A stretch of 61,954 bases of DNA from a virus. The stretch spans positions 1 through 61,954 of IMG/VR virus record IMGVR_UViG_3300037840_000222. One strand, written 5' to 3'. Below, piece after piece: positions 27,548 through 44,858 of the stretch. How positions within the stretch are numbered: the first letter of the stretch is position 1; every line of letters begins with the position of its first letter. The translations under genes were made by a program, and so were the position numbers. The notes below the pieces were generated by a model. The model did not search any database. It was not told where the DNA came from and saw only the letters and a program-made list of their open reading frames with translations.

Positions 27548-27563
27548 ATTCCATTAATGGAAT
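27548..27563. repeat. Palindrome copy 14
   Basis: Exact. Overlaps the stop of gene 27563-27766. Confidence 0.95.
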
Positions 27564-27766: not shown

Positions 27767-27822
27767 AAGCCCTCCATAAGAAAAGGGAAGTTCTGATCCT
27801 TCCCTTGCCCTAGCAGGACTTA
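27767..27822 (-). promoter_or_regulatory. Stop-hairpin-start element E1
   Basis: RNA sense: stop TAA in AAGTCCTGCTAGG, apical stem AAGGGAAG/CTTCCCTT, then CTTATGGAGGGCTT directly before ATG. Basal AAGTCCT pairs with AGGGCTT. Confidence 0.7.
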
Positions 27823-28065
27823 GATGGCTAGAGTGAGATCACCGAGAAGAGTGATATCCGTGCGGCTGCCGAAATAGCTGGCAGGCTTCACCGTTACCTG
27901 ATTGGCTCCCGCATTACCGGGGTGGCCCAGCTTTACAGCTTCACCACCAGTGGCCTTGACGTAAACGCGGCCATAGGAGGTCTGAAAGAATCCGCCGACC
28001 GGAACATCAGCGAAAGTGACGGACTTAGGAGCCGCCTTAGCGGCTGTGGTAAACTTAAAAGGCAT
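27820..28065 (-). CDS. Hypothetical protein (81 aa)
   Basis: MPFKFTTAAKAAPKSVTFAD followed by VPVGGFFQTSYGRVYVK, a small beta-barrel type pattern. GC-richer wobble than neighbours. Lies between elements E1 and E2. Confidence 0.6.
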   Translation of the reverse strand: MPFKFTTAAKAAPKSVTFADVPVGGFFQTSYGRVYVKATGGEAVKLGHPGNAGANQVTVKPASYFGSRTDITLLGDLTLAI

Positions 28066-28113
28066 GTTTTTCTCTTTTCATTTGAAATTCTCTCTTTTGA
28101 GAGTGAGGTTCTG

Positions 28114-28157
28114 ATCCCTCCATAAGACAGTCTAAATTAGACTGCCCTAGCAGGAAT
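28114..28157 (-). promoter_or_regulatory. Stop-hairpin-start element E2 (remote variant)
   Basis: RNA sense: ATTCCTGCTAGGG, stem CAGTCTAA/TTAGACTG, CTTATGGAGGGAT. Unlike other copies it ends about 50 nt before the next start and is followed by a second hairpin, CTCTC-AAAA-GAGAG. Confidence 0.6.
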
Positions 28158-28163
28158 GAAGCT

Positions 28164-28511
28164 CTAATAACCTGAAATAACGCCGGATTGTAACTCTAAA
28201 TACCACGCACCTCCGTCATGGTCTTTTGTTTGGATATCGGCTTCCGCCTCTTCATTAAACAGAATTTTAACATATTGAAGATATCGTTCTGTTACTGTTA
28301 AATCTTCTTGTGTAGAAAGATCGAAACGATATTGATAATTAACGTAATAAGATAGGATACTTTTTCTTATCATTAATTCGATTTGTTCTCTGTTTGGCTG
28401 GCAATCATCTCTATAATCTAGAGCCAATTTAAGGCCATTTAACATCGGACGGAAAGTATTGCTAAAATCGTTGTCGCCTAAAACTATCGCTATTGTTCTT
28501 ATCTGTTCCAC
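28164..28511 (-). CDS. Hypothetical protein (115 aa)
   Basis: Start set at GTG 28511 (VEQIRTIAIVLGDND), two bases after the upstream TAA; an ATG seven codons earlier lies inside the upstream gene. Helical, acidic C-terminus. Confidence 0.55.
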   Translation of the reverse strand: MEQIRTIAIVLGDNDFSNTFRPMLNGLKLALDYRDDCQPNREQIELMIRKSILSYYVNYQYRFDLSTQEDLTVTERYLQYVKILFNEEAEADIQTKDHDGGAWYLELQSGVISGY

Positions 28512-28513
28512 GT

Positions 28514-28678
28514 TTACCCCACCCAAACCCAATTACAAACACAACTTATTGTCTCATGAAGCGTCTGTTTTGGGTACTGTCCTTCCCCAATGTTGTCCCG
28601 CCTAAAACCGGCGGCCCTATTAGGAAAGATTCCGGAATAAGTGGCACAGGAAACGTAAATAGTTTGTTCGAGGTTCAT
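28514..28678 (-). CDS. Hypothetical protein (54 aa)
   Basis: MNLEQTIYVSCATYSGIFPN; AGGAGGACAG before ATG. Three Cys. Palindrome copy 10-25 bases upstream. Confidence 0.6.
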   Translation of the reverse strand: MNLEQTIYVSCATYSGIFPNRAAGFRRDNIGEGQYPKQTLHETISCVCNWVWVG

Positions 28679-28688
28679 CTGTCCTCCT

Positions 28689-28704
28689 ATTCCATTAATG
28701 GAAT
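28689..28704. repeat. Palindrome copy 15
   Basis: Exact. Abuts the stop of the phosphatase gene. Confidence 0.95.
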
Positions 28705-29808
28705 TTAAAACCCGCCTAGCAATTGAGTTTGACTGTTATTTTGATAAGTGCTGGCGGTAGTTTCATATTTGAATTTTGCTTCGAACTTATCCAGTTTACC
28801 TGCGACAGACCAAACGGCTTTTTCCTGTATGAGTGCCTCAATTGCCTCTGGGCAGTGCATAGAATGAACGAGATCAATTGCCGCCCTTGGCTCCATCCCA
28901 CAAGCTACGACAAACAGAGAGGCTAATGCTGTTCCAGTCCGACCATGACCACCTACACAAAACATTAACATTTTGTATTTATTGGTTTTGAGATAGTTTA
29001 CCAAATCTCTCCAAAATTCGCCTGGAAGATTAACCACCCCTCTATCCGGCCAGTCAAGAACAAATTCTCTATATGTCTGTCCTCCAGATTCCCATTTAGC
29101 CAATTCGGGGACAGGTAATTTGTGCTTTTTTCCTATTTCATTTCCAGTTAGATTGAGCACTATATCAAATTCGTTTAAACGGGTTTCGCAATCATACCTG
29201 CGGCCTACCCAAACACCCCACGTTTTCCCATCAATCATTTGTTTTGGTGGGTGGGAACAGTGTTTAACGTTAGACGTATAACTGGCGAAGCCGTTCGCTT
29301 TCCGGCCAGCAGGAGTTTCGTGCTTTTCAGCTAATGCCCAGGTATCGAATTTTTGTTTACAGTATATGCATTGTTGAGAACATTCTTCTTTAACCCATTT
29401 ACAATAATGGAGTTCTTCTTTTTGCTCATCCTTCTTTTCAGTCTGGATCATAGAATTATCCCTTTCATGGTTGGTGGCTTCCTGCATATACCAAGTTTCA
29501 AACTTACACCCGGTACAATGCCAGATTTCATATTCATCAATGTAAACTTGATGTTTTATTTGGTCTTGATCTGGCAGAAACTCTTTAGTCTCTAGATTCC
29601 AATCTTTTTCACATTTATCACAGTAACCCAGCCAAACACCGTGCCATTCATATTCATAACTTGCAGTTTGGCATTTTGGGCAAGGAGAATAGACAGCTTC
29701 GCCTACCCCCGCTTGTTCGACATCCGACTGTTCCATCATAGATAATTCCAGTTCGTTATGGGGCCGATCACAATCTATTTCTTCGCATTGACAGATTAAA
29801 TTATTCAT
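28705..29808 (-). CDS. Dual-specificity phosphatase with zinc-ribbon N-terminus
   Basis: 367 residues. N-terminal third has several C-x-x-C pairs (CPKCQT, CDKCEK, CIYCKQKF with a following H), like zinc ribbons. C-terminal 150 residues: MLMFCVGGHGRTGTALASL is a C-x(5)-R phosphatase loop of the tyrosine/dual-specificity family, with LVNYLKTNKYK before it and general-acid candidate D in LDWPDRG. Stop abuts a palindrome. Overlaps the end of the large Cys-rich gene upstream, so the two are co-expressed. Confidence 0.75.
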   Translation of the reverse strand: MNNLICQCEEIDCDRPHNELELSMMEQSDVEQAGVGEAVYSPCPKCQTASYEYEWHGVWLGYCDKCEKDWNLETKEFLPDQDQIKHQVYIDEYEIWHCTGCKFETWYMQEATNHERDNSMIQTEKKDEQKEELHYCKWVKEECSQQCIYCKQKFDTWALAEKHETPAGRKANGFASYTSNVKHCSHPPKQMIDGKTWGVWVGRRYDCETRLNEFDIVLNLTGNEIGKKHKLPVPELAKWESGGQTYREFVLDWPDRGVVNLPGEFWRDLVNYLKTNKYKMLMFCVGGHGRTGTALASLFVVACGMEPRAAIDLVHSMHCPEAIEALIQEKAVWSVAGKLDKFEAKFKYETTASTYQNNSQTQLLGGF

Positions 29809-32344
29809 TAGGCTCCGTTTCTTCTTCTATTTCTGGATTACAGTTTTCACAATCGGTATTCTCGCAATCATGACAGTCTGTGTTTGTACAGTTACATCCA
29901 TTAGGGCAGCAATTTTCACAATCATGGTCATTACAGTCACAGCAGTTTGGGCACATCCAATCGGTATCGTGACAAGATATGCAGTTACAGTCGCAACCGT
30001 CGGGATAGCAGATACTACAGGTGTGGTCTTCACAATCGCATTTTGGAATAACTACCGCCGGATGGCAATCTTCGCATTCAGGATTCCCGCAACATTCATT
30101 CGTACAGCAAACTTTCACTGATGAAGAAGAGACTTGTTTCTTGTAAATCTCAGTCTTATATCGTTTCCGGTGTTCTTCTAGATACGTTTTCGGATCGAGT
30201 GGCTCGATTTTGAACTTTCTGGCTTCTACAAATCTTTTTTCTAACCCTATTCCACCGTCTTTTATAGCATCATAAAGAATTGGGGCTACGGGTAGAATAG
30301 AATGAATCGGATTATTCGCAGTATAAGTCATCTCATTTGGAGAGATAAACTTATTAAAAGTCCATCCCCCATTGTGAACAGAGTTTACCCCGTTATTCAG
30401 TGCTTCGAGAGCCGCTTGATAGTTTCCATCTACCAAAGCATTAAAAATAAGACCGGCCCAGCGGGCTAACAGAAACCATCTAGGCCCGCCGATGCTTGAA
30501 TTTCGCCAATCTTCTTTATCGAAAGAATCCATCGCGGAGACATATCTTTTCCTGGTTATACCGAAAAAAGTCCGAGGAAAATAGGTGTTGTATTCTGTTT
30601 CCCGGTCTCCGATACTCCCGGTGCCCAATATCGTGCGATCTCTTCTACGATATTCCCCTAACGTCGCCGTAACTAGAAGTCGATAACAGCACCCCATTGC
30701 CAGTCCTAACAAGAGATCGGCTTTTCCTAACCATTTAATCGTATGGTGGCACCCCGCCATCATGATATAAGCGGCATTTTCCCTTTTTACTTTAATCTTA
30801 CATCCTAACATAAATCCGCGCTTCATCGCGATTATATCAGGCGTAGATTTGGAGGATAGAGGCTCTAAAATCTCTCCGATCTTAGGCTCTCTAGATACTA
30901 GAATGGGGATGTTTGACAGGTAGGCATGAACAGCATAATGGCTGGCTAAACTACCTCCTGGGTGGTAAACGACTGATCCTTCAGGGAGGGTTTTTACCTT
31001 TTTCTCCCATTCTAGTAAGTCGCCTTTAGCTTCGACAATTGAAGTAACTGTGATTTTCTTAGGGATAAAATCAATCGAATCGGGGAGTTTCGGCCCGTTT
31101 CTTAGTTGGACATATTGTGGACTATATTCCTTGTCTTCCCTGATTACTAATTTCTGTTTGATGTTGCAAAAAACACAAAGTTTATGCGTGTATTCTCTCC
31201 ACAATATTTCAAGATATGGTGCCTCAGTTATCCCGGCATCTTTTAATAAATTACCCCAAATAACTATATGACTGTAGGGACTACCGATTGTAGATATTCT
31301 TATCGAATCTCTTCCGCTAGTGGCCCCGTCGTTACCTTGGCCGATAGACAACGATCCTTCTGTCCATACTCCGCTATGACTGGACTTGATAAAAGGCATA
31401 GCGATAATCTCCGCGTTTTCATCAGCCTGCCGAGTCTCTTTGACTATTTGTTGGGCTTCTTCAAGCGTGTTTACAGGCCGTGAATCAACAAATCCGTGTC
31501 TAGGAATAACAGGACAAGGACGGACGAATTTACCTATCAATTCTTGTAACTGTTTTTTGGTCTTTAACCATTCTATATCATATAATTTGTTCTCAGGAAC
31601 AGGGAAATAATGTTTACTTAGGGCCGACAATCCTCTAGTTTTTTGGGTTCGATAGTCGATTGGTGTTTGTGATAACGTTTTACGATCACCAACTTTTTTA
31701 CCTTTTGCGACAATCGTGTCACCACAAATATAACAGCCGCAACCAACCGTTCCGTAGATTTCAGCAGTTCCTTGAATAATCGAACTATCTCCTACGATAG
31801 CCCCTGACAAAAACGATTTATCGTTAACAGTGGTATGCTCTTCTATTTTTGAATCATGAACCAGGCTTTCCCCCCAAATAAGACAATTTGGACCCACTAT
31901 AGAAGATCCACATACAACGGCATTTTTGCCCACATTAGCCGACGCATCTACCTGAGAATCTTTATACACCCAGCCACCAGGGAGGTATCCGTTTGTATTT
32001 TTATGGCGGTGCCAATCTTCAAAAACAGATCCAGGCATAAGATCAAGAATTTTCTGGGTTGGCACATCCGGTTTTGTCTCTTTCATTTCTAGAATAGCAG
32101 TATTTTCCATATTTTCTTCCTGTAGTGGAATAGAAAAAGCGGGGTCAATTGGATAAAAGATTTGATTATCTTTTGGAGTAGCGTATTCAATCTTATACGG
32201 AAAGCCTACAGTCGTCCAGTCTTTTGAGATAGGTATTGATACGTCTACTACTGGTGCAGTGTAAAACCATGATTGCGGAATTTTTTCTTTAACCAGAAAA
32301 TAGGTTTTAGACAGTTTTTCAAAGTCATCTAATTTTAGAGCCAA
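29801..32344 (-). CDS. Large multidomain protein: hexapeptide-repeat, PEP-mobile-like and Cys-rich tail
   Basis: 847 residues. About 115-230: left-handed beta-helix hexapeptide repeats (VDASANVGKNAVVCGSSIVG). About 270-450: region with SGVWTEGSLSIGQGNDGATSGR and QYVQLRNGPKLPD. About 470-500: VVYHPGGSLASHYAVHAYLS resembles the swivelling phosphohistidine domain of PEP synthase-type enzymes (G-G-x-x-S-H-x-A/V). About 740-835: more than 30 Cys in C-D-C / C-x-x-C spacing with acidic residues. I did not recognise this combination; it may bind metal and carry a phosphate or nucleotide relay. Confidence 0.65.
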   Translation of the reverse strand: MALKLDDFEKLSKTYFLVKEKIPQSWFYTAPVVDVSIPISKDWTTVGFPYKIEYATPKDNQIFYPIDPAFSIPLQEENMENTAILEMKETKPDVPTQKILDLMPGSVFEDWHRHKNTNGYLPGGWVYKDSQVDASANVGKNAVVCGSSIVGPNCLIWGESLVHDSKIEEHTTVNDKSFLSGAIVGDSSIIQGTAEIYGTVGCGCYICGDTIVAKGKKVGDRKTLSQTPIDYRTQKTRGLSALSKHYFPVPENKLYDIEWLKTKKQLQELIGKFVRPCPVIPRHGFVDSRPVNTLEEAQQIVKETRQADENAEIIAMPFIKSSHSGVWTEGSLSIGQGNDGATSGRDSIRISTIGSPYSHIVIWGNLLKDAGITEAPYLEILWREYTHKLCVFCNIKQKLVIREDKEYSPQYVQLRNGPKLPDSIDFIPKKITVTSIVEAKGDLLEWEKKVKTLPEGSVVYHPGGSLASHYAVHAYLSNIPILVSREPKIGEILEPLSSKSTPDIIAMKRGFMLGCKIKVKRENAAYIMMAGCHHTIKWLGKADLLLGLAMGCCYRLLVTATLGEYRRRDRTILGTGSIGDRETEYNTYFPRTFFGITRKRYVSAMDSFDKEDWRNSSIGGPRWFLLARWAGLIFNALVDGNYQAALEALNNGVNSVHNGGWTFNKFISPNEMTYTANNPIHSILPVAPILYDAIKDGGIGLEKRFVEARKFKIEPLDPKTYLEEHRKRYKTEIYKKQVSSSSVKVCCTNECCGNPECEDCHPAVVIPKCDCEDHTCSICYPDGCDCNCISCHDTDWMCPNCCDCNDHDCENCCPNGCNCTNTDCHDCENTDCENCNPEIEEETEPNE

Positions 32345-32365
32345 TTTTGTTCCTCGGTTGAAAAT

Positions 32366-32381
32366 ATTCCATTAATGGAAT
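32366..32381. repeat. Palindrome copy 16
   Basis: Exact. Overlaps the stop of gene 32381-32608. Confidence 0.95.
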
Positions 32382-32608
32382 TACAGTCGTTTCTCTTTCC
32401 TGTACCAGCTTTTTTGCCATTGTTTTAAGACATTTTGAGAAATAGACAAAACCACCACCATAAGGCCTATTCCCGCTCTGGCTGTCGAATTAGTAACATC
32501 AACTAATCCGTTCCATAAATCCATTAAATGGGGTTTTGCGTGATCTCTAAACCCCCTGGTGGTTTTTAGATAGTGGAATTTGATTGAGTGGTTTATATCT
32601 CTAATCAT
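32381..32608 (-). CDS. Hypothetical protein with one hydrophobic segment (75 aa)
   Basis: MIRDINHSIKFHYLKTTRGF, then NSTARAGIGLMVVVLSIS (short hydrophobic stretch), basic tail WYRKEKRL. Preceded by element E3; stop fused to a palindrome. Confidence 0.6.
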   Translation of the reverse strand: MIRDINHSIKFHYLKTTRGFRDHAKPHLMDLWNGLVDVTNSTARAGIGLMVVVLSISQNVLKQWQKSWYRKEKRL

Positions 32609-32655
32609 TAAAACCCTCCATTGGGCGCTCTGCGGAGCGCCCTAGCAGGGTTTTA
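32609..32655 (-). promoter_or_regulatory. Stop-hairpin-start element E3
   Basis: RNA sense: TAA in AAAACCCTGCTAG, strong stem GGGCGCTC-cgca-GAGCGCCC, AATGGAGGGTTTTA then ATG. Basal AAAACCCT pairs with AGGGTTTT. Confidence 0.75.
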
Positions 32656-33126
32656 ATATCCAGTTTTGATGAAATGTAAAACTCGAAGTTTAGTTGCCTT
32701 GAACCGCCCTTTTCCAGTCTTAGCTGCTTTATACATATTTGAGTATTTTTCAGGCCATCCATACCCCCCATTGCAAGAATGTTCTTTGAGAAAGAACAGT
32801 CTAGCGGCTTGTTGATCCGTGAGACCGAGTATTTTCTTAGCAGGATCAAATGCATCGGGAAATCCATCGTACTTATCTTCGAAGAATCCATAATCCTTCA
32901 AAAATTGAATACCTTTTTTAGTTACAAGGAGGCAGGTTCCGCCCAAACAAGAGGTGATTTTACAAGGCGGAACAGGTTGCATTTTATGATCAACTCCGGC
33001 TACTTGGTCGTCTTCGTGAAAAGCACCCCAGTGTACCATGTTAAGCCGGTCTTTCTCTTCTTCCAAATATTTCAGGATTCGGAGTAGAATTCGTTCTGTT
33101 TTCTTTGATACTGCGTTTTTTGTCAT
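32653..33126 (-). CDS. Hypothetical protein (157 aa)
   Basis: MTKNAVSKKTERILLRILKY; middle has SCLGGTCLLVTKKGIQFL and FFEDKYDGFPDAFDPAKKIL. Resembles small phage helical proteins; no family recognised. Confidence 0.6.
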   Translation of the reverse strand: MTKNAVSKKTERILLRILKYLEEEKDRLNMVHWGAFHEDDQVAGVDHKMQPVPPCKITSCLGGTCLLVTKKGIQFLKDYGFFEDKYDGFPDAFDPAKKILGLTDQQAARLFFLKEHSCNGGYGWPEKYSNMYKAAKTGKGRFKATKLRVLHFIKTGY

Positions 33127-33248
33127 TTTGTTCTCCTAAAGAACGTTATAATTCTGTGAAAATATAACCGCCATCCATAGTAGATGGTTGTTCCCGCTAC
33201 GACCGTAGCGGTACCTATTTCGGGTCAGATATAGCACATAAAACCCCC

Positions 33249-33431
33249 TTAAGACAATCTGTTCTCTCCTAGCCAATAATCACCGTGAGATGAACAGACT
33301 TTATATCCTAGAACAATCTTGCCATCTTGTAAATCCCGTCTCCAGGCTCTGATTTCTTCTACTTTACCGGACAGACGGGTTCCGTTAATGGAAAAAAGAA
33401 CTTTTTGGCCGATATCGAACTTAAGTTTCAT
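33249..33431 (-). CDS. Hypothetical SH3-like protein (60 aa)
   Basis: MKLKFDIGQKVLFSINGTRLSGKVEEI reads like a small SH3/YopX-type barrel. Start at ATG 33431 overlaps the upstream TGA. A degenerate palindrome encodes SING. Confidence 0.6.
   Translation of the reverse strand: MKLKFDIGQKVLFSINGTRLSGKVEEIRAWRRDLQDGKIVLGYKVCSSHGDYWLGENRLS
33379..33394. repeat. Degenerate palindrome
   Basis: GTTCCGTTAATGGAAA. In frame in gene 33249-33431. Confidence 0.5.
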
Positions 33432-33592
33432 GAATAAGCCCCTATTTCTTTTTCTACTCTGAAAGCAACGGAAATTTTCTGTCCACATCCTGTACAAGTA
33501 AACTCCCTGCCACTATGAGTATGACCGGTGTTTACAAAATGTGAATGACACCCTTCTGAAGCGTTCTCACAACTTATGTGATAAAAATCCAT
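33428..33592 (-). CDS. Zinc-binding small protein (54 aa)
   Basis: MDFYHISCENASEGCHSHFV, later FTCTGCGQKIS: C-x(6)-C plus C-x-x-C. ATGA overlap with the next gene. Confidence 0.6.
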   Translation of the reverse strand: MDFYHISCENASEGCHSHFVNTGHTHSGREFTCTGCGQKISVAFRVEKEIGAYS

Positions 33593-33633
33593 AGTTGCTT
33601 TAAAATGTTAAGTTACCATAGTTTTCCTTCTCT

Positions 33634-33649
33634 ATTCCATTAATGGAAT
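33634..33649. repeat. Palindrome copy 17
   Basis: Exact. Overlaps the stop of gene 33649-33795. Confidence 0.95.
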
Positions 33650-33795
33650 TATTTATGAAGTTCATTACAGACAGTACAACGAAACCCGCCTGTTTTGTTA
33701 AAAGAGTTACGGGCGAAATTCATCACTCGAAGGAATTTTCCATATTTAAAATCTTGGTATGAATGGGCGCACTTACAGGGTTTAATAGCGGTCAT
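33649..33795 (-). CDS. Zinc-ribbon small protein (48 aa)
   Basis: MTAIKPCKCAHSYQDFKYGK, later FRCTVCNELHK: two C-x-(x)-C knuckles. ATG 33795 overlaps the upstream TGA. Stop fused to a palindrome. Confidence 0.6.
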   Translation of the reverse strand: MTAIKPCKCAHSYQDFKYGKFLRVMNFARNSFNKTGGFRCTVCNELHK

Positions 33796-34040
33796 ACTCC
33801 TAGCTCCTCTGCGGTCAGTTTGGATATTTCTTTCTGTAAACTCTGACTGGTTAAAACGATTTCGCACTCCATCATTGTGATAGCTAAAACTAATACATGG
33901 GATATTTCTCGGATTGACGCCCCTTGGAGAAGATATGAATGAATTGTATTTTTTAAGGCTTTGATGGCTTCAGCTTCCAAGTTTAAAGCTAAATCCGTGT
34001 ATTTATCTCTATTAAAAAGCGAAAGATTTTCTTTTTCCAT
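33792..34040 (-). CDS. Hypothetical helical protein (82 aa)
   Basis: Start at ATG 34040 (MEKENLSLFNRDKYTDLAL), with GAGGTG three bases upstream. Helical and acidic; QGASIREISHVLVLAITMM could be helix-turn-helix-like. Confidence 0.55.
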   Translation of the reverse strand: MEKENLSLFNRDKYTDLALNLEAEAIKALKNTIHSYLLQGASIREISHVLVLAITMMECEIVLTSQSLQKEISKLTAEELGV

Positions 34041-34053
34041 AAGCACCTCATCG

Positions 34054-34076
34054 CGGTACATAGTTTGTATGTACCG
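34054..34076. repeat. Inverted repeat just upstream of gene 33792-34040
   Basis: CGGTACATA and TATGTACCG flank five bases. Lies immediately 5' of the ribosome site, so it may be an operator or an RNA hairpin that governs it. Confidence 0.6.
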
Positions 34077-34086
34077 AGTCAAGCGA

Positions 34087-34455
34087 TTAGAATGAAACTA
34101 ACTCCTTCCTGGGATGAGGTTTTTTAACAATCGGTATTTCGGTTGATAGATTTTCATCCCTACGGGTTTGTTTGGCGGCCACTGTGGCCGCGCCATCAGT
34201 GGTCAGGGTTAATAAATCGGCGTGTATGGACAGAAAAGACAGCACTTTCTGTCCATTTGTAAATAAGAATTTTACTACGTCGGCGGGGATATTGATTGCC
34301 GACCGGATATAACCCCGGATTTGGAAATCGCCATCATAGGAAACCATAAAAGTAGGTTCAGCCGATGGCTTTTTGTTTTTCCATAGAGTTGCTTCAAGCT
34401 CTTTGACATAAGTTTGAAGTTCCTCGGCGGACATTCCAGTTGTATCTTTAAACAT
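34087..34455 (-). CDS. Hypothetical protein (122 aa)
   Basis: MFKDTTGMSAEELQTYVKEL; TTCCTCGGCGG helical start, then beta-rich middle and basic tail (KPHPRKELVSF). TTTAGGAGAAAATATG start region. Confidence 0.6.
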   Translation of the reverse strand: MFKDTTGMSAEELQTYVKELEATLWKNKKPSAEPTFMVSYDGDFQIRGYIRSAINIPADVVKFLFTNGQKVLSFLSIHADLLTLTTDGAATVAAKQTRRDENLSTEIPIVKKPHPRKELVSF

Positions 34456-34467
34456 ATTTTCTCCTAA

Positions 34468-34483
34468 ATTCCATTAATGGAAT
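34468..34483. repeat. Palindrome copy 18
   Basis: Exact. Four bases past the stop of the AUU-start candidate. Confidence 0.95.
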
Positions 34484-34487
34484 AGAT

Positions 34488-34631: not shown

Positions 34632-34640
34632 TCTATTCTC

Positions 34641-34946: not shown

Positions 34947-34948
34947 AT

Positions 34949-35650: not shown

Positions 35651-35660
35651 TGAACAGACC

Positions 35661-35676
35661 TTTTCATTAATGGAAT
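35661..35676. repeat. Palindrome copy 19
   Basis: Variant TTTTCATTAATGGAAT. Abuts the stop of duplicated gene copy 2. Confidence 0.9.
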
Positions 35677-35892
35677 TTAGATTTCTTCTAGCTGGCAAGA
35701 ACGGTGACGACGACTATAAGAGTTTACCAATTCCCATTTGTTATCTTTTAGCTCGTACTTATCTACGTTGTTGGCTCCGCTTCGACCAGATGGGCTATTT
35801 AAGTAGTCTAACGCTTCGATAGAACTGTTGGTTAGATTCGGAGACCCGTATCCTTCGTATTCGTATTCATCGTACATAATAAACAGAATCAC
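35677..35892 (-). CDS. Duplicated hypothetical protein, copy 2 (71 aa)
   Basis: GTG start at 35892 with GAGGAG upstream; VILFIMYDEYEYEGYGSPN ... RRHRSCQLEEI. About 90% identical to 8494-8709 by eye. Stop abuts a palindrome in the same position as in copy 1. Confidence 0.7.
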   Translation of the reverse strand: MILFIMYDEYEYEGYGSPNLTNSSIEALDYLNSPSGRSGANNVDKYELKDNKWELVNSYSRRHRSCQLEEI

Positions 35893-35993
35893 AAAATTCT
35901 CCTCATCCAAACAGATAGGTTTAATATCTGCTTGGTCAAAAGAATTTTCTATTCACCAAGTAGCCGTAGATGGGAATAGTTGAATAGAGTGAC

Positions 35994-36087
35994 AGAACGC
36001 CTAATAGAACAGACTAAAATAAAGCCGGTCTGCTGGCCATATCAGAACAAGGGACATTTATTGATAATCTGTTCAATAAGACGTTCT
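35994..36087. ncRNA. Imperfect hairpin A
   Basis: 35994-36013 pairs with 36068-36087 with about four mismatches in 20; interior includes GCCGGTCTGCTGGC. Tandem to hairpin B. Strand not determined. Confidence 0.4.
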
Positions 36088-36098
36088 AACGATGCAGA

Positions 36099-36180
36099 AG
36101 TGGTTAATGGAGAACAGAATAAGATCGATTTCCCGGTCGCATACAGGCGACCAGCAATATTCTGCTCTCTATTAACCACT
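36099..36180. ncRNA. Long hairpin B
   Basis: 22-nt arms 36099-36120 and 36159-36180 pair with one mismatch and one G-T; inside is GGTCGC-atacag-GCGACC. Looks like a structured RNA or processing site. Strand not determined. Confidence 0.5.
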
Positions 36181-36319
36181 CCCTGCCCTATTTAACGTCC
36201 ATTACCAACTACCGAGTAGGTTTTTACTCTATTCTCCGATTGCTAGACATTACTCTAGATTTCATCCGGGGATGAATAGATTAAAACCCGCCACCAGAAT
36301 CTTAGGCAGCTACTCTGCC

Positions 36320-36335
36320 TTTCCATTAATGGAAT
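36320..36335. repeat. Palindrome copy 20
   Basis: First base T. Overlaps the stop of gene 36335-36499. Confidence 0.95.
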
Positions 36336-36499
36336 TAGTAATGAAACCAAGAATTTGTAACTTCGAGAAATACTTGTTTCTCGCGGCCAGCCTTTTTATT
36401 TTCCATCCACTCCCGGTTAGCTTCGTGATTCCGCTTACTTTTCTTTGGCCCTTTCCATCCACCGCGCTTAGGATGGCGCATTTTCATTGTTCCGTTCAT
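36335..36499 (-). CDS. Small basic protein (54 aa)
   Basis: MNGTMKMRHPKRGGWKGPKK; strongly basic N-terminal half, possibly nucleic-acid binding. AGAGGG upstream of ATG 36499. Stop fused to a palindrome. Confidence 0.6.
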   Translation of the reverse strand: MNGTMKMRHPKRGGWKGPKKSKRNHEANREWMENKKAGREKQVFLEVTNSWFHY

Positions 36500-36501
36500 T
36501 T

Positions 36502-36636
36502 CTACCCTCTCTTCTTCGGCCTCTCCCATTTAAGAGCGGGCTGGCCGTTGGTTAGTTTAAACTCTCCTACTCTTGTTCCACGTAGGAGTCTAGCGTCTCT
36601 TTTTCTTTGGGAAATAGTTTTAAAGATTCGTTTCAT
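36502..36636 (-). CDS. Small basic protein (44 aa)
   Basis: MKRIFKTISQRKRDARLLRG; basic, ends KWERPKKRG. Its TAG lies two bases before the next ATG. Confidence 0.55.
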   Translation of the reverse strand: MKRIFKTISQRKRDARLLRGTRVGEFKLTNGQPALKWERPKKRG

Positions 36637-36646
36637 GAACAGGCTC

Positions 36647-36910
36647 CTATGGTAGTTCGAATACGTGAAAAACTAGACTGCCGCCATCTAAGAAATACGA
36701 ACCAAGATAATCTCTGTCAGCTTCGGGTATTGGATGGCCTGTACCGAAGATTTCAAACTGTCTATCTACCTTCGGAGCTGTCGGGTCAACTTCCACCCAA
36801 AGGCAGGGAATGTTAAATTGTGCGGCGACGTGCAATATAAAGCCGTCTTTCGGGATGGCTATCGTTTGACGGCCCGTAGTTTCTAAAGGAAATTTCCAGA
36901 TTGCTTTCAT
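36647..36910 (-). CDS. DUF7352-like phage protein (87 aa)
   Basis: MKAIWKFPLETTGRQTIAIP, then HVAAQFNIPCLWVEVDP and GTGHPIPEADRDYLGSYF match a widespread small phage protein pattern (K-F-x-L ... I-P-x-G-A/F-x-I-L-x-V ... G-T-G-x-x-I). Function unknown. Confidence 0.7.
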   Translation of the reverse strand: MKAIWKFPLETTGRQTIAIPKDGFILHVAAQFNIPCLWVEVDPTAPKVDRQFEIFGTGHPIPEADRDYLGSYFLDGGSLVFHVFELP

Positions 36911-36925
36911 CGTGTTCCCCTCTCT

Positions 36926-36941
36926 ATTCCATTAATGGAAT
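36926..36941. repeat. Palindrome copy 21
   Basis: Exact. 15 bases upstream of gene 36647-36910. Confidence 0.95.
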
Positions 36942-37059
36942 TAAAACAAAAATAGAACGCCTATAGGGATCGGGGAATAGATTTAGGAAAAAGTGGTATG
37001 TGGCACGAAGCCTTCCACCGGGTTATCTATACGCCGACCCTTAGAGACGTTCTAGTTAG

Positions 37060-37258
37060 GAATAGAACGGCGATATGTGGGTAATAGGTTAGCGTATACT
37101 CTTAAGTAGTAAAGAGGCCCGGCAGGGAAGTTCTCAGTGCAAATCTGAGTGCGCTCCTAACCAATGGCTAAGGTTAGATCAAGAATGCAGATAGACGTTA
37201 GTACTAACGGAACATTGTGAAATCCTGCATCTATTACCCACATATCGCCGTTCTATTC
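37060..37258. ncRNA. Structured element closed by a 28-bp perfect stem
   Basis: 37060-37087 and 37231-37258 are perfect inverted repeats. Between them are CTCAG/CTGAG, CTAACC/GGTTAG, ATGCAG/CTGCAT and CGTTAG-TA-CTAACG hairpins. Predicted as a roughly 200-nt multibranched RNA; orientation unknown. Could also be an origin or packaging structure. Confidence 0.55.
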
Positions 37259-37757
37259 ACAGAATGATGGCGAACAGAGGAATTTTAGCCCTTGCGGAAC
37301 GCACCTCTGTTCACCGGAGCTAGTAGCTCCCTAAGATTCTGGTGACTTAGCAGACCAATAAGCGGCTACCCTCAAGCTCAGACTCTTGTCTAGCTCTCCT
37401 TACGTGGATATGATATGGTCTAACAAGTCCACCCATTCCCTAACGTAACCCTTTGGGACTATGCCCGGTTATGCTTCTTTCCATAAGTACCGCGCTAACC
37501 TATTGAGTGCTGCCGACCGGACCCCGCAAGCGGGATTCGACGGCAAACGCAGTGTACCACAACCGATTTTGCCGAGAGTCCGAAAAATCGCGCAAGTGCT
37601 TTGTTTTCAGCGCGAAAAAAATTCTTGACAGGTTTCGCCGGTCAAAACCGGCGGAGGCGTAAATCGTTGAAAACACGGCACTTAAGTTTTGAAAAGTTTC
37701 GTGAAGATTCGTAAAGCACTGCGCATATAAAGGACGGCACTCGATTTAATTTTTTCC

Positions 37758-37787
37758 TTGACAGAAAAACGGAGACTGTGGTATAAT
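37758..37787 (+). promoter_or_regulatory. Sigma-70 promoter of a leaderless gene
   Basis: TTGACA (37758-37763), 18-bp spacer, TATAAT (37782-37787). The ATG at 37794 is seven bases past the -10, so the transcript should start at or beside the ATG. Confidence 0.75.
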
Positions 37788-37793
37788 TATTGC

Positions 37794-38471
37794 ATGAAAA
37801 TTAAAAAAGAAGTGTTTAAGATCATAAACTATGATGATTTTAAACTATCCTATTATGTTTATGCTTGGATTCGAAATAAAGACTGGTTGTACGTTGGTCT
37901 GTCTAAAAACGTCCATCAGAGAATATTCGACCATAATGTAATCGGAATAGAAGAACCTTTTCAAATAACAGACAAAATTTTATTGTTTAATTGCTCTAGT
38001 AAAGACGAAATGTGTCTATTAGAGAAGCAGTTAATTAGAGAAAATAAACCGAAATACAACAAATACGGATATATTATTAAGGAAAAAATACCTGTACATA
38101 AGCAAAAAAGTAAAGAAAAACTAATTGAAGAACCAATTATTAAAGACAATAGCGTATCATTGAAAACTATAACGAAAGAAACTGCATCAAAAGAAATTAA
38201 TTATTTTGACCCTTTATGGGAGAGCAACAAAAATTTAGTAAAGGAATATTTCCACTTGCAAAAAGTATTACCATTAGTTGATTCTCAAACACATATTATA
38301 ATGGATAATAAGATATCGTCCAAAATAACTAAGCCTCGTATTAAAATATCTTTGGCAGATAAACAGGCAGCCATGCGCGAAAGATATACTCGACAAAAGT
38401 CTGTCCCGATTTTTTCTATTCCTGTCTCTTTGAGCCAGAATGATCAGCCTATAATAAAACCAGCCCCCTAG
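37794..38471 (+). CDS. GIY-YIG nuclease-like protein, AT-rich
   Basis: 225 residues from ATG 37794. YYVYAWIRNKDWLYVGLSKN gives the Y-V-Y ... Y-V-G core, then R-x-x-x-H, and MCLLEKQLIRENKPKYNKYG the conserved E and N-x-x-x. The C-terminal half is Lys-rich and AT-rich, unlike neighbouring genes, suggesting transfer. Opposite in direction to all neighbours, with its own near-consensus promoter and no leader. Confidence 0.75.
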   Translation: MKIKKEVFKIINYDDFKLSYYVYAWIRNKDWLYVGLSKNVHQRIFDHNVIGIEEPFQITDKILLFNCSSKDEMCLLEKQLIRENKPKYNKYGYIIKEKIPVHKQKSKEKLIEEPIIKDNSVSLKTITKETASKEINYFDPLWESNKNLVKEYFHLQKVLPLVDSQTHIIMDNKISSKITKPRIKISLADKQAAMRERYTRQKSVPIFSIPVSLSQNDQPIIKPAP

Positions 38472-38488
38472 ATATACTAAGGGGCTGA
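38450..38488 (-). terminator. Intrinsic terminator, possibly bidirectional
   Basis: CAGCCCC (38461-38467) pairs with GGGGCTG (38481-38487); on the minus strand it is followed by GTTTTATT. Ends the 38512-38892 operon and overlaps the stop of the convergent GIY-YIG gene. Confidence 0.6.
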
Positions 38489-38491
38489 GAA

Positions 38492-38507
38492 ATTCCATTA
38501 ATGGAAT
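38492..38507. repeat. Palindrome copy 22
   Basis: Exact. Between the stop of gene 38512-38745 and the terminator. Confidence 0.95.
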
Positions 38508-38511
38508 AGAG

Positions 38512-38745
38512 TTAGCGACACACTGGATTCTTTGGTGGCCACGGTTCGAACCGCGAGAAGTTTTTCTGTAATGGTGGTTTTTGTTGTTCTTTTAGATAAT
38601 CATTAACTGTTGGCAGAGCATCACGGAAACAATGGCTATGGCGAAGAATAATACAACCATGAGCAACTATCCAACGTTTTCTGGTAATTGAAAAATAGAC
38701 TCTCACTTTCATCCAATCGCCATTACGGGTTTTTACTCTATTCAC
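38512..38745 (-). CDS. Hypothetical basic protein (77 aa)
   Basis: GTG start (VNRVKTRNGDWMKVRVYFSI) with GGAG eight bases upstream, overlapping nothing. Aromatic/basic; His/Cys-containing centre (HGCIILRHSHCF). Confidence 0.6.
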   Translation of the reverse strand: MNRVKTRNGDWMKVRVYFSITRKRWIVAHGCIILRHSHCFRDALPTVNDYLKEQQKPPLQKNFSRFEPWPPKNPVCR

Positions 38746-38892
38746 TCAGCACACTCCTATTCTGATTACCAAGTTGATAAGACACGGTAATGTTGTTAGT
38801 GATCTCTTGATTAATAGACTGAAAACCACCATAGAGATGATAGAGATCTTGTGAAACGGTTTGGATACTTGTTTAAACAGTTTATCTATCAT
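38746..38892 (-). CDS. Small membrane protein (48 aa)
   Basis: MIDKLFKQVSKPFHKISIIS then a hydrophobic helix. Strong AAAGGAGG site four bases upstream of ATG; a TGCCG/CGGCA hairpin precedes it. Confidence 0.6.
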   Translation of the reverse strand: MIDKLFKQVSKPFHKISIISMVVFSLLIKRSLTTLPCLINLVIRIGVC

Positions 38893-38957
38893 CGAACCTC
38901 CTTTGCCGCCTATAGACGGCAGAATCAGAAAATGTCAGTTATAACCGTCATGCAACG

Positions 38958-39100
38958 GCCTAGCTACAGCCTAGCCGTTGTATCGGTTTCGATGCTTTGG
39001 CTAGGCCATAGCCTAGCCGCTGCCTAGCTAAAAGTGTTTTGGCTAGGCCAACAAACTAACCTAACCTTAACTCTACTTACCTTCCCTTACCTTAACTTTA
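38958..39100. repeat. Iteron array 1 (GCCTAGC) with CTTACC tract
   Basis: Six copies of GCCTAGC or its complement at 38958, 38969, 39000, 39011, 39022 and 39042, followed by a tract with repeated CTTACC/CCTTAAC (39057-39100). Candidate replication origin or partition site; compare 44171-44250. Confidence 0.6.
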
Positions 39101-39356
39101 CAGCGCCGGTTAAAAGCGGTAACGGTTTTAACTAGCGGAATCGCTGTCCTTTAAAATCGTCCGCTGCGGATTCGACCCTTTCAGGGAATGAGTCGCATTC
39201 GTGAGCTTTCCGTGCGATTTAAAGCGTTCGGCGTTCGAAATGACCTGGGCTACATACTTTTCCGAGAATCGCTCATATCGAATCGTGGCGACAAAAACTC
39301 ATTTCTTCACCGAACTTCATCGAACTTTACAAACCATGATGGCGCTCTCCTGAGCT

Positions 39357-39372
39357 ATTCCATTAATGGAAT
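39357..39372. repeat. Palindrome copy 23
   Basis: Exact. In non-coding sequence beyond the operon terminator. Confidence 0.95.
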
Positions 39373-39394
39373 AGATTAAGACAACGCCATAAAA

Positions 39395-39431
39395 CAGAAA
39401 AAACCCTAAGAGGCTGGTTTTCCTCTTAGGG
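39395..39431 (-). terminator. Strong intrinsic terminator
   Basis: Minus strand: CCCTAAGAGG, loop AAAACCAG, CCTCTTAGGG, then TTTTTT. Ends the array of small genes that starts near 43.2 kb. Its 5' arm contains the stop of a seven-codon ORF. Confidence 0.85.
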
Positions 39432-39449
39432 TCGTCGCCGCTGTTCCAT
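39426..39449 (-). CDS. Seven-residue leader-like ORF (MEQRRRP)
   Basis: ATG directly follows the GGAGGGTTT of element E4; three consecutive Arg codons CGG CGA CGA, then CCC and TAA inside the terminator's 5' arm. Could sense translation and modulate the terminator. Confidence 0.5.
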   Translation of the reverse strand: MEQRRRP

Positions 39450-39509
39450 AAACCCTCCATAAGCCATCATAGGGAATAGAAAAACCATATGATGGCCTAG
39501 CAAGGTTTA
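39450..39509 (-). promoter_or_regulatory. Stop-hairpin-start element E4
   Basis: RNA sense: TAA in AAACCTTGCTAGG, apical stem CCATCATA/TATGATGG, CTTATGGAGGGTTT then ATG of the seven-codon ORF. Basal AAACCTT pairs with AGGGTTT. Confidence 0.75.
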
Positions 39510-39662
39510 TAGGCTTATTTTTACTCCATGAAAAACTTGAACAGAATACCCTTGTTTTTCATACTCTCTTACGGCATTAGTAGCTACTTCAACATCTCTA
39601 TACCAATCAACACCCTCGCAATCATTTTTACATGTAGCCACTACATAAAATTTCTCTTCCAT
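39507..39662 (-). CDS. Hypothetical protein (51 aa)
   Basis: MEEKFYVVATCKNDCEGVDW; small alpha-beta protein with two Cys (C-x(3)-C). Start follows E5, stop is inside E4. Confidence 0.65.
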   Translation of the reverse strand: MEEKFYVVATCKNDCEGVDWYRDVEVATNAVREYEKQGYSVQVFHGVKISL

Positions 39663-39713
39663 AATCCCTCCACTCGGGGACAGAGATTAGTCTGTCCCCT
39701 GATTGATGGATTA
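39663..39713 (-). promoter_or_regulatory. Stop-hairpin-start element E5 (divergent)
   Basis: RNA sense: TAA in AATCCATCAATCAG, stem GGGGACAG/CTGTCCCC, GAGTGGAGGGATT then ATG. The TGCTAG motif is altered but the basal stem (AATCC with GGATT) is kept. Confidence 0.65.
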
Positions 39714-39944
39714 CTTATACTGACCGCAGGATATCTGAACCTCGTTCTTTGTTTCAGACGTTCCCTTGACCGTTGGGTCGGCGTTTTCATCACAAGTCAC
39801 AATAAAATCTGTTTGGCTCAGTTGATGGATGTGAAAGCGACGGGAAAAACGCTTGTTCTGTGCCTCAACGTGAAGCGAGTACATCAGAAAAAACAGAACC
39901 AAACCCGCGATTGTGATTACTGCCCACGTTCCTGCTTTTTTCAT
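39711..39944 (-). CDS. Membrane-anchored small protein (77 aa)
   Basis: Start at ATG 39944 (MKKAGTWAVITIAGLVLFFL), N-terminal transmembrane/signal anchor, then a beta-rich domain with two Cys (VTCDEN, ISCGQYK) that could form a disulfide in the periplasm. Confidence 0.65.
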   Translation of the reverse strand: MKKAGTWAVITIAGLVLFFLMYSLHVEAQNKRFSRRFHIHQLSQTDFIVTCDENADPTVKGTSETKNEVQISCGQYK

Positions 39945-40002
39945 ATTAAAACCCTCCATAAGAGAACAGACTGGTTTTTTCTGTTCCCCTAGCAAGATTT
40001 TA
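39945..40002 (-). promoter_or_regulatory. Stop-hairpin-start element E6
   Basis: RNA sense: TAA in AAAATCTTGCTAGG, stem GGAACAG/CTGTTCT, CTTATGGAGGGTTTT, AAT, ATG. Basal AAAATCTT pairs with AGGGTTTT. Confidence 0.75.
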
Positions 40003-40467
40003 GAATATACTCTTACCGTTCCATGAGTTACACGGAACTTGCTGTTTATGGAGAATGTTGAGTTCGTCTTTGCAGTCGGCGTCTGCCTTCTGCCAGTCGG
40101 CGTCTGCCTTCTGCCAGTCGGCGTCTGCCTTCTGCCAGTCGGCGTATGCCTTCTGCCAGTCGGCGTCTGCCTTCTGCCAGTCGGCGTCTGCCTTCTGCCA
40201 GTCGGCGTATGCCTTCTGCCAGTCGGCGTATGCCTTCTGCATTCCTACAGGAAGTTCGCCTTCAAACGGACGGAAATTTGTTAGCCGAATTACTCTTTCC
40301 TGTTGTGGTTTATTGTTTAAGATATATTGAATTCGTTCTTCAACAGGAAAAGCCAACGGCTCAATTTGAACTTCATGATGGCAACACCATGCAATTTTGG
40401 AACGGGTATTTGCCCATACTTCGCGGCATTCTTTTGCCGCTTGTTCTATTTGATCGTTTTGGATCAT
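40000..40467 (-). CDS. Heptad-repeat protein (155 aa)
   Basis: Start at ATG 40467 (MIQNDQIEQAAKECREVWAN). Residues about 76-132 are eight tandem copies of K-A-(Y/D)-A-D-W-Q, a seven-residue helical repeat with a Trp in each unit; coded by 21-bp DNA repeats (40075-40240). Ends KQQVPCNSWNGKSIF. Likely a long helix or coiled coil; copy number may vary. Confidence 0.7.
   Translation of the reverse strand: MIQNDQIEQAAKECREVWANTRSKIAWCCHHEVQIEPLAFPVEERIQYILNNKPQQERVIRLTNFRPFEGELPVGMQKAYADWQKAYADWQKADADWQKADADWQKAYADWQKADADWQKADADWQKADADCKDELNILHKQQVPCNSWNGKSIF
40072..40242. repeat. 21-bp coding tandem repeat, about 8 copies
   Basis: Unit gtcggcgtctgccttctgcc plus a, with tct/tat variation. Encodes the A-D-W-Q-K-A heptads of the overlapping gene. 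Confidence 0.9.
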
Positions 40468-40520
40468 AGTAAAACCCTCCACTGGAAATTCCATTAATGG
40501 AATTCCCTAGCAAAATTTTA
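40468..40520 (-). promoter_or_regulatory. Stop-hairpin-start element E7 (palindrome as apical stem)
   Basis: RNA sense: TAA in AAAATTTTGCTAGGG, apical stem is the 16-bp palindrome, then CCAGTGGAGGGTTTTACT and ATG. Confidence 0.7.
40488..40503. repeat. Palindrome copy 24
   Basis: Exact. Apical stem of element E7. Confidence 0.95.
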
Positions 40521-40652
40521 CTTGGGATGAGCCAATTGATAGATGGCCCAACGTTTCGCTAAACCTTTGGAAATTGGCGTCTCAGATTCGGCTCTGATAA
40601 TCCGAATCAATTGCTGGCGTCTCGCACGTCTTGCTTTTTTCTGTTCAGTCAT
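40518..40652 (-). CDS. Small basic protein (44 aa)
   Basis: MTEQKKARRARRQQLIRIIR then ETPISKGLAKRWAIYQLAHPK. Strongly basic helix; possibly DNA or RNA binding. Confidence 0.65.
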   Translation of the reverse strand: MTEQKKARRARRQQLIRIIRAESETPISKGLAKRWAIYQLAHPK

Positions 40653-40712
40653 AAAACCCTCCCATAGAGCTAGTCCATTAAGAGAACAGACTAGCCTAAT
40701 GGCAAGATTTTA
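40653..40712 (-). promoter_or_regulatory. Stop-hairpin-start element E8
   Basis: RNA sense: TAA in AAAATCTTGCCATTAG, stem GCTAGTC/GACTAGC, CTATGGGAGGGTTTT then ATG. Longer stem, CCAT/ATGG added below. Confidence 0.7.
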
Positions 40713-40916
40713 GCCAAATAGATGCTCTGGTATCCAAAGCAAAATATCATCGGCCATCATTGCTCTATAACCTCCGCATGGACAAAAAAACATGCCGCTA
40801 AATGGAACACTTCCGCAAGATTTTCCGCATTGTGGGCATGTCTTAGGGTTTTCGTTTGAATTAGGAAAACCCGCCACTATAAATTCAGGCGTAATACTTC
40901 CCTTGCCATAAGCCAT
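40710..40916 (-). CDS. Zinc-ribbon protein (68 aa)
   Basis: MAYGKGSITPEFIVAGFPNS, KTCPQCGKSCG, FFCPCGGY: four to five Cys in zinc-ribbon order. Confidence 0.65.
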   Translation of the reverse strand: MAYGKGSITPEFIVAGFPNSNENPKTCPQCGKSCGSVPFSGMFFCPCGGYRAMMADDILLWIPEHLFG

Positions 40917-40925
40917 CTGTTTACC

Positions 40926-41054
40926 TCATTTCGATTGAACTGGTTTAGTCATTCCGGCATATGGACAGGCAACGGAACAGTGATAACATGGGCAGCTATC
41001 GGGATGTTTATAGCAATTACAAACAGGCTTACGCTTTTGCTTTTCTCTGTTCAT
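40926..41054 (-). CDS. Cysteine-rich microprotein (42 aa)
   Basis: MNREKQKRKPVCNCYKHPDS then CPCYHCSVACPY: seven Cys in 42 residues, likely zinc binding. AGGTAAG before ATG; the AGG TAA of the preceding gene provides the site. Confidence 0.6.
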   Translation of the reverse strand: MNREKQKRKPVCNCYKHPDSCPCYHCSVACPYAGMTKPVQSK

Positions 41055-41055
41055 C

Positions 41056-41217
41056 TTACCTCCAAACCTGTGAACGGTCTTTTGGTTGTGGTTTACCACA
41101 AACGAAGCATGTTGTCTTAACCAGTCTCCGATTGCGTCTATGTTGATTCTTCCAAAGTGAGCCGCAAGGCTTACACTGGCGTTTTCCTAATCGCATGGTG
41201 GAATCGAGTTTTGTCAT
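41056..41217 (-). CDS. Zinc-ribbon microprotein (53 aa)
   Basis: MTKLDSTMRLGKRQCKPCGS, later TTCFVCGKPQPK: C-x-x-C-G twice with basic linker, like an HNH-type or ribbon zinc finger. Preceded by E9. Confidence 0.65.
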   Translation of the reverse strand: MTKLDSTMRLGKRQCKPCGSLWKNQHRRNRRLVKTTCFVCGKPQPKDRSQVWR

Positions 41218-41275
41218 AAATCCTCTAATTAGGACACTCTATTCCATTAATGGAATGTCCTAAGTGCAAGATTTA
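41218..41275 (-). promoter_or_regulatory. Stop-hairpin-start element E9 (palindrome inside)
   Basis: RNA sense: TAA in AAATCTTGCACTTAGG, stem TAGGACA/TGTCCTA enclosing an exact palindrome, then ATTAGAGGATTT and ATG. Confidence 0.7.
41241..41256. repeat. Palindrome copy 25
   Basis: Exact. Inside the stem of element E9. Confidence 0.95.
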
Positions 41276-41719
41276 CCCGGTATATAGAGTATCAGCATTT
41301 TCTGTTTTACTAGTTCTTAAAAACTTTGTCATATTGGCGGAATTCAGATATACATGTGCCGTTGCTGGTTTTCCGCAAAATGTTCCGCTCTGAACAAGGG
41401 CAAAACTGTCCGGTAAAAATTTGAGAGTGACGTTGCCAACATGGTCAACGGCAAGGTGTTTATCTTCCGAATTCACCAAACCACGGTTAGCGATATCGAA
41501 AAACGGATGAGTGGATGTTGGCATTGGTTGACGTTGCATGGTGGCCAGATTCACAATGGCATACTCGTCCCGTGATCCGCCGTCCCAGTAGCTATTGATA
41601 TTCTTACCATTATCAGGAAATGCAGAGAGAAAAGCATTGTGTTTCTTATAGCTTGGAAACGCCAATTGAATTACTCTCTTCACTTCCGGCGCTATCCTCA
41701 AAGTGATAGTTTGAAGCAT
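41273..41719 (-). CDS. Hypothetical protein (148 aa)
   Basis: MLQTITLRIAPEVKRVIQLA; beta-rich, with RDEYAIVNLATMQRQ. GGAGGGTTTT before ATG. No family recognised. Confidence 0.65.
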   Translation of the reverse strand: MLQTITLRIAPEVKRVIQLAFPSYKKHNAFLSAFPDNGKNINSYWDGGSRDEYAIVNLATMQRQPMPTSTHPFFDIANRGLVNSEDKHLAVDHVGNVTLKFLPDSFALVQSGTFCGKPATAHVYLNSANMTKFLRTSKTENADTLYTG

Positions 41720-41737
41720 AAAACCCTCCTGAATACC

Positions 41738-42004
41738 CTATTGCATTGGGTGTTTCATTGGACGTGCCCTCGTGCTGTGATGTTTTCGCATCAATTCTAT
41801 GCAAGCCTCTTCAGGTGAGGAGTAAAGTTCCCTGTGGGGTGAAGTGCCGTCTTCCATATACCAACAAAATTTGCTTATATAAACCATTCGCCCCAAATAA
41901 GGGACTAAAATCTCTGTTTTGAGTAAAATCAGATTACTGGTACTATAATCATAATCTGCACTCGTATTACGAACTTCCGCTGTCGCATAGATATAGTCTT
42001 CCAT
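41738..42004 (-). CDS. Hypothetical protein (88 aa)
   Basis: MEDYIYATAEVRNTSADYDY; His-rich end (RKHHSTRARPMKHPMQ). Preceded by E10. Confidence 0.65.
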   Translation of the reverse strand: MEDYIYATAEVRNTSADYDYSTSNLILLKTEILVPYLGRMVYISKFCWYMEDGTSPHRELYSSPEEACIELMRKHHSTRARPMKHPMQ

Positions 42005-42066
42005 AAACCCTCCACTAGGCAGATAATTCCATTAATGGACAGATTATCTGCTAGGTGCAAGGTTTA
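42005..42066 (-). promoter_or_regulatory. Stop-hairpin-start element E10 (palindrome inside)
   Basis: RNA sense: TAA in AAACCTTGCACCTAG, long stem CAGATAAT.../ATTATCTG enclosing a variant palindrome, then CTAGTGGAGGGTTT and ATG. Confidence 0.7.
42026..42041. repeat. Palindrome copy 26
   Basis: Variant ending GGACA. Inside element E10. Confidence 0.9.
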
Positions 42067-42252
42067 TTGGGCAAACTTGCGCCGGTACTGCTCTTTCCAA
42101 TCCCTGATGGCAAGTTCAGGGCGGGAACCTGAGCCACAGATACTGTCTAGATTGTTTCCAATCCAATCTGTAGTAACATAGCATTGCCATGTCTTACCGC
42201 ATTGTTTCAGATTATACGTCAAACTTCTGAAAAGTTTTCGTCTGTTCTCCAT
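42064..42252 (-). CDS. Hypothetical protein (62 aa)
   Basis: MENRRKLFRSLTYNLKQCGK; two Cys, basic. Preceded by E11, stop in E10. Confidence 0.65.
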   Translation of the reverse strand: MENRRKLFRSLTYNLKQCGKTWQCYVTTDWIGNNLDSICGSGSRPELAIRDWKEQYRRKFAQ

Positions 42253-42308
42253 AAATCCTCCACAAAATAGGGGAACGATATTCTGTTCCCCTAGTCTAGC
42301 AGGATTTA
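42253..42308 (-). promoter_or_regulatory. Stop-hairpin-start element E11
   Basis: RNA sense: TAA in AAATCCTGCTAGACTAG, stem GGGGAAC/GTTCCCC, TTTTGTGGAGGATTT then ATG. Basal AAATCCT pairs perfectly with AGGATTT. Confidence 0.75.
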
Positions 42309-44804: not shown

Positions 44805-44858
44805 ATTAGTTTAACCGATGCCGGATGAGAAAGAAGTTACCCGGACGGTTTTCGATTT

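Follow-up and report, generated by a model that had tools for sequence, protein, structure and literature searches.

What is the function of the hairpins that separate consecutive small genes in this phage, where a single fold draws in both the stop codon of one gene and the ribosome-binding site of its successor? The DNA analysed here, called the window, is the complete IMG/VR record IMGVR_UViG_3300037840_000222 (61,954 bases). A preliminary description had listed eleven stop-hairpin-start elements in it. All eleven places are present, every one on the minus strand, and ten of them (E1-E4 and E6-E11) are true copies of one structured RNA motif. The remaining place, E5, lacks the UGC core, and its score in the final model (12.8 bits, E 0.98) is no better than chance.

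Structure and location of the elements

The ten copies share a fold in which a basal stem of about 8 bp leads into the core 5'-U.GC / UGG.A-3' and then into an apical hairpin whose sequence is unlike in each copy. The core lies near the middle of the hairpin and consists of a U-A closing pair with GC opposite UGG. At its root the basal stem takes in, or lies next to, the upstream gene's stop codon. The duplex is irregular and 17-24 bp long, or about two helical turns. The elements are located between genes of a small-gene operon, as follows.

27766-27822, minus strand: E1; TAA stop with basal stem TAAGTCC/GGGCTTA, the core T.GC/TGG.A and an apical hairpin; its Shine-Dalgarno sequence (SD) is GGAGG, and the ATG of gene 27563-27766 follows after 4 nt
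28112-28159, minus strand: E2; after gene 28164-28532, whose TAG stop is a few bases upstream
32610-32654, minus strand: E3; between gene 32653-33126 (TAA) and gene 32381-32608 (ATG)
39449-39509, minus strand: E4; after gene 39507-39662
39662-39714, minus strand: E5; a hairpin lies between stop and SD, but the conserved UGC core is missing; excluded from the members
39948-40001, minus strand: E6; between genes 40000-40467 and 39711-39944
40471-40519, minus strand: E7; between genes 40518-40652 and 40000-40467, with the palindrome ATTCCATTAATGGAAT as its apical stem
40653-40711, minus strand: E8; between genes 40710-40916 and 40518-40652
41217-41275, minus strand: E9; between genes 41273-41719 and 41056-41217, with UAG.AGG in place of UGG.AGG on the 3' side
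42004-42066, minus strand: E10; between genes 42064-42252 and 41738-42004
42252-42308, minus strand: E11; between genes 42306-42713 and 42064-42252

Several features proposed as common to all of the elements hold with exceptions. The upstream stop codon was given as TAA, and a TAA is overlapped by the element in nine of the ten copies, E2 with its TAG being the exception. The UGC/UGGA core is exact in E1-E4, E6, E7, E10 and E11 and varies in E8 (UGGG.A) and E9 (UAG.A), the latter departing from the TGG said to mark the 3' side. The GGAGG of the 3' arm precedes an ATG by 4-8 nt in eight of the ten elements, and E9 has a degenerate GAGG. The placement of the SD directly before ATG thus describes most copies but fails at E2, where no start codon follows directly and the next ORF begins at 28065. 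Downstream of E4 there is only a 7-codon ORF (MEQRRRP) and a terminator-like hairpin. In E5, the TGC that had been read as part of the motif actually lies within the upstream gene.

Folding, covariation and the conserved core

Folding z-scores of the elements range from -3.0 to -6.1, and the pattern TGCTAG..TTATGGAGG is seen four times where 0.01 occurrences are expected. In the ten copies 85% of the cells pair, and the covariation score over basal and apical pairs is 0.378 compared with 0.205 for shuffles. None of 500 shuffles scored as high, and the score drops to about 0.20 or lower once the pairing partner is slid. Folding and covariation therefore bear out the view of the elements as structured, recurrent and SD-sequestering, including the covariation of the basal pairs and the presence of apical stems that are unrelated in sequence yet paired (ten copies, E5 excluded). 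The basal stem alone is 97% paired when the window copies are combined with those of three other phages. Covariation also persists with more copies: in the basal helix of 25 elements 94% of cells are paired and double changes number 53 versus 14.7 in shuffles, a count that is inflated and partly built in, since the descriptor that found several of the relatives demanded basal pairing.

Sequence changes in the elements keep RNA pairing, G-U pairs included, which bears on whether the hairpins act as DNA. Conserved repeated ends and variable middles around small genes are what might be seen in recombination linkers for the shuffling of gene cassettes, comparable to attC DNA hairpins. The attC-like cassette idea was rejected on account of this preserved RNA pairing, and copies in Okubovirus relatives (described below) keep to corresponding junctions, making linkers a very improbable explanation.

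Self-cleaving ribozymes located at gene junctions are likewise an extremely doubtful explanation. The string 'UAA..CUGC..GUGGAGGG' looks twister-like by eye. A relative of gene 41273-41719 was found in one contig only, L005, and this contig has Hammerhead_II matches between its genes. Against a ribozyme, the window contains no Rfam ribozyme match at E values up to 5, and the elements lack conserved loops for tertiary contacts, their apical loops being unrelated in sequence. The resemblance to twister and hammerhead was rejected as unsupported by cmscan.

To assess the specificity of the core, each of the 1,024 possible T.xy/zwv.A cores was counted with a single structural rule. Of these, TGC/TGGA ranks first in the window (8 occurrences), in Cytobacillus phage Bfsp1 (3) and in phage SPO1 (5), with P values against marginal expectation of 8e-8, 1e-6 and 3e-7, respectively. 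It is tied for the most frequent core in Goe16 and is not enriched in G001, an unrelated 65-kb contig (P 0.26).

Copies in other phages

A covariance-model search had been proposed with the preliminary description, and such a model (R1), built from the ten window copies only, did find further copies. R1 identified three in an unrelated 176-kb phage, G002 (E 1e-7 to 6e-5), and single copies in Bfsp1 (copy a, E 8e-13) and a phi29-like contig. Two of the three G002 copies were picked by no pattern and came from R1; their basal stems differ yet are complementary (TAACTTT/GGAGTTA and TTAGTCT/GGGTTAA).

Pattern searches were less productive. The strict element pattern gave no match in viral contigs and four matches in genome contigs, none of which had an apical hairpin, while a loose scan for an SD plus basal stem returned too many chance matches for use. 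Pattern matches in viral contigs were mostly chance and were retained only with a strong apical hairpin and the right layout. Three such matches with strong, well-placed hairpins were obtained from IMG/VR: L009 (phage G002), L119 (G003) and L105/L106 (G005, phi29-like). With the UGC positions unconstrained, strong hairpins still came only with UUGC (one independent case). Covariance-model matches with E <1e-4 at loci selected by pattern were left out as evidence.

The copies of G002 and G003 have the same SD layout as the window elements. In all three phages the core UGGA continues into GGAGG, with a start codon 4-14 nt on. G005 has the core, but there the SD of the next gene is not formed by the 3' arm. 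Bfsp1 (L221, MZ570263.1) has the same core at three successive early-operon junctions, all of them unannotated.

8906-8958: Bfsp1 copy
9296-9346: Bfsp1 copy
9646-9699: Bfsp1 copy

These hairpins share the core with the window elements but differ from them in their basal stems, which are unrelated, and in the absence of the next gene's SD from the 3' arm, each having its own SD further downstream. Because the Bfsp1 copies retain the core without the SD and with other basal stems, the conserved thing is the core and not the SD. The core is independent of the SD, contrary to the earlier proposal that the conserved bases are tied to it.

A second covariance model, R2, matches the window, G002, G003, G005, Bfsp1, SPO1 and SP82G, in a phage scan that passed two of the three Bfsp1 copies and did not list window E9, which was found in a separate run. 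R2 has no match in T7, T4, A511, K, SPbeta, phi29, B103 or KonjoTrouble, and no copies were found in the Bacillus phages phi29, B103, Chedec 11 and PumA1. Positions 27-43 kb of the window have no nucleotide match to any record searched in the phage collection, and a search for relatives by way of the DNA polymerase or the large protein near E3 yielded none that were useful. Rfam has no match to the window copies, which had not been recognised as a named motif in the preliminary description, and has no family for the SPO1 sites either. The motif occurs in at least six phage lineages (the window phage, G002, G003, G005, Bfsp1 and SPO1/SP82G).

Relationship to the RNase III sites of SPO1 and SP82

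The RNase III sites of SP82 early mRNA were reportedly mapped by Panganiban and Whiteley in 1983. For SPO1, the GenBank entry for the early region (AF031901.1) has six hairpins labelled 'RNAse III site', the label being a GenBank annotation. Four of the six correspond to the motif.

11043-11095 of AF031901.1: SPO1 RS-A, descriptor match
10750-10799 of AF031901.1: SPO1 RS-B, descriptor match
10123-10170 of AF031901.1: SPO1 RS-C, descriptor match
5415-5473 of AF031901.1: SPO1 RS-D, close variant with UGU for UGC, matched by R2

RS-E and RS-F have the same label and lack the full core. The descriptor, which consists of a 7-bp basal arm, T.GC, a hairpin and TGG.A, finds five copies between small early genes of SPO1 (the coordinates of the SPO1 records are offset by 1,685). 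SP82G has the same set of sites as SPO1, and in Okubovirus relatives copies remain at the corresponding junctions. Two further SPO1 hairpins with the same core, at 5801-5849 and 12229-12277 (L228), do not have the RNase III label of AF031901, and the second of these overlaps an annotated terminator.

RS-A to RS-D and the window elements have in common the core T.GC(TAG)/(CA)TGG.A, a basal stem of about 8 bp and apical hairpins that are unrelated in sequence. As in the window, the SPO1 sites lie between small genes and sometimes overlap the stop codon, and their duplexes are 17-21 bp long. They differ in the 3' arm, which in the window is the SD of the next gene with an ATG within 4-8 nt, whereas in SPO1 the arm is TGGAGCC and a separate SD follows. 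When R1 was run on positions 1-20 kb of SPO1 it recognised none of RS-A to RS-D, and the link to SPO1 therefore rests on core, architecture and position and not on full-length homology.

A small invariant internal loop between variable helices could also be the binding site of a phage or host RNA-binding protein, as in an operator, or of a ligand, either of which would recognise UGC/UGGA without cleavage. This explanation is improbable, given that in SPO1 the same hairpins bear the RNase III label and that a duplex of two turns fits RNase III. The earlier suggestion of a conserved internal loop serving as a recognition site nevertheless holds in spirit, as the UGC/UGGA core recurs and coincides with annotated RNase III sites. 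In T7 early mRNA, RNase III sites of the E. coli type are likewise irregular hairpins between cistrons, about two turns long, and divide the early message (PMC8708148). T7 has no R2 match anywhere, unlike the window.

Predicted processing and translational coupling

The ten elements are probably sites of the SP82/SPO1 type at which host RNase III processes the message between cistrons, a prediction that includes the cleavage itself. Their irregular duplex of 17-24 bp has about the length covered by an RNase III dimer, and cleavage would be expected near its middle (see PMC8708148). An RNase III dimer would accordingly bind the duplex of each element, the core would mark the cleavage point near the centre of the two-turn helix, and cutting would split the polycistronic message into units. 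The window phage has no RNase III of its own that could be found, and the enzyme meant is therefore that of the host.

Since the SD is within the 3' arm, the uncut stem would hide the ribosome-binding site of the next gene. The SD would then be freed by cleavage, or by a ribosome that reaches the stop codon within the basal stem and terminates there. The two processes are compatible, and termination-coupled reinitiation may occur alongside cleavage. It is possible, though put forward here only tentatively, that several unrelated phages (the window phage, G002 and G003) combine in one hairpin an RNase III site and the following gene's ribosome-binding site, with host RNase III, the terminating ribosome or both acting as the on switch. 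The next small gene would be silenced in the uncut message and exposed in the cut one.

Alternatively, the elements could serve translational coupling alone, a ribosome that terminates at the in-stem UAA opening the SD with no nuclease involved. The lysis gene of MS2 is an example of translational coupling in which a stem-hidden SD can be opened by the upstream ribosome, and hairpins of this kind resemble the window elements in hiding the SD in a stem. Translational-coupling hairpins are not known to have an invariant internal core. Coupling alone would agree with the stop codon within the basal stem in nine of ten copies, with the SD in most 3' arms and an ATG 4-8 nt downstream, and with the same SD layout in G002 and G003. 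Junction lengths agree as well: in the E4-E11 cluster junctions measure about 47-58 nt with an element and 18 nt or less without one, so that each ribosome-binding site of the cluster is either near a stop codon or held in a hairpin. Coupling, however, has no need of a UGC/UGGA core. The core is nonetheless almost invariant and is found again in places without a hidden SD (Bfsp1 copies b and c, SPO1 and SP82G), and E2 has no start codon at hand. Coupling without a nuclease is on balance unlikely. Obligatory coupling had been proposed as the primary function. As a general explanation this is not supported, because Bfsp1, G005, SPO1 and SP82G have the same core with a 3' arm that does not serve the next gene as SD. 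The window phage may still use coupling, which its junction lengths fit.

RNase III processing, the preferred explanation, links a motif from a metagenomic phage to a class of Bacillus phage RNase III sites dating from 1983. The class thereby gains a defined core and a covariance model, which Rfam does not have, and the motif predicts where these phages cut their messages. No paper describing the motif outside SP82 and SPO1 was found in the literature covered, from which older subscription literature was absent. The family is more widespread than its record suggests, and what appears to be new is the SD-fused form of the site, with cleavage predicted from sequence. It raises the question of whether one hairpin can be both a nuclease site and a translation switch.

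Other features of the window

The 16-bp palindrome ATTCCATTAATGGAAT occurs at 37 places across the window, many of them perfect and both genic and intergenic (for example at 420, 3836, 18953, 27548, 28689, 40488, 51221 and 60212). In E7, E9 and E10 it makes up the apical stem or part of it, and a phage DNA-binding protein may bind at these palindromes.

Contig L005 (IMGVR_UViG_3300048854_000073) has hammerhead type II-like ribozymes between small genes, just past stop codons.

9903-9964 of L005: hammerhead-like, Rfam RF02276, E 0.004, below the gathering score
10387-10448 of L005: hammerhead-like, Rfam RF02276, E 0.002, below the gathering score
About 11709-11764 of L005: third hammerhead-like copy, identified by eye

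A tandem repeat of about 24 bases is present at 40060-40250, within the ORF 40000-40467. Long inverted repeats are located at 35990-36200 and 36950-37270, in stretches without clear genes, and 36093-36187 folds into a hairpin that is long and nearly perfect. The Pfam cut-off is exceeded by two GIY-YIG domains (37851-38060 and 56644-56883), which probably belong to homing endonucleases. A tRNA-like fold at 44743-44808, which ARAGORN does not call, lies next to tRNA-Met(cat) at 44859-44932. It can be aligned to the tRNA-like ends of tmRNA with E 0.0016, at a score far short of the gathering threshold.
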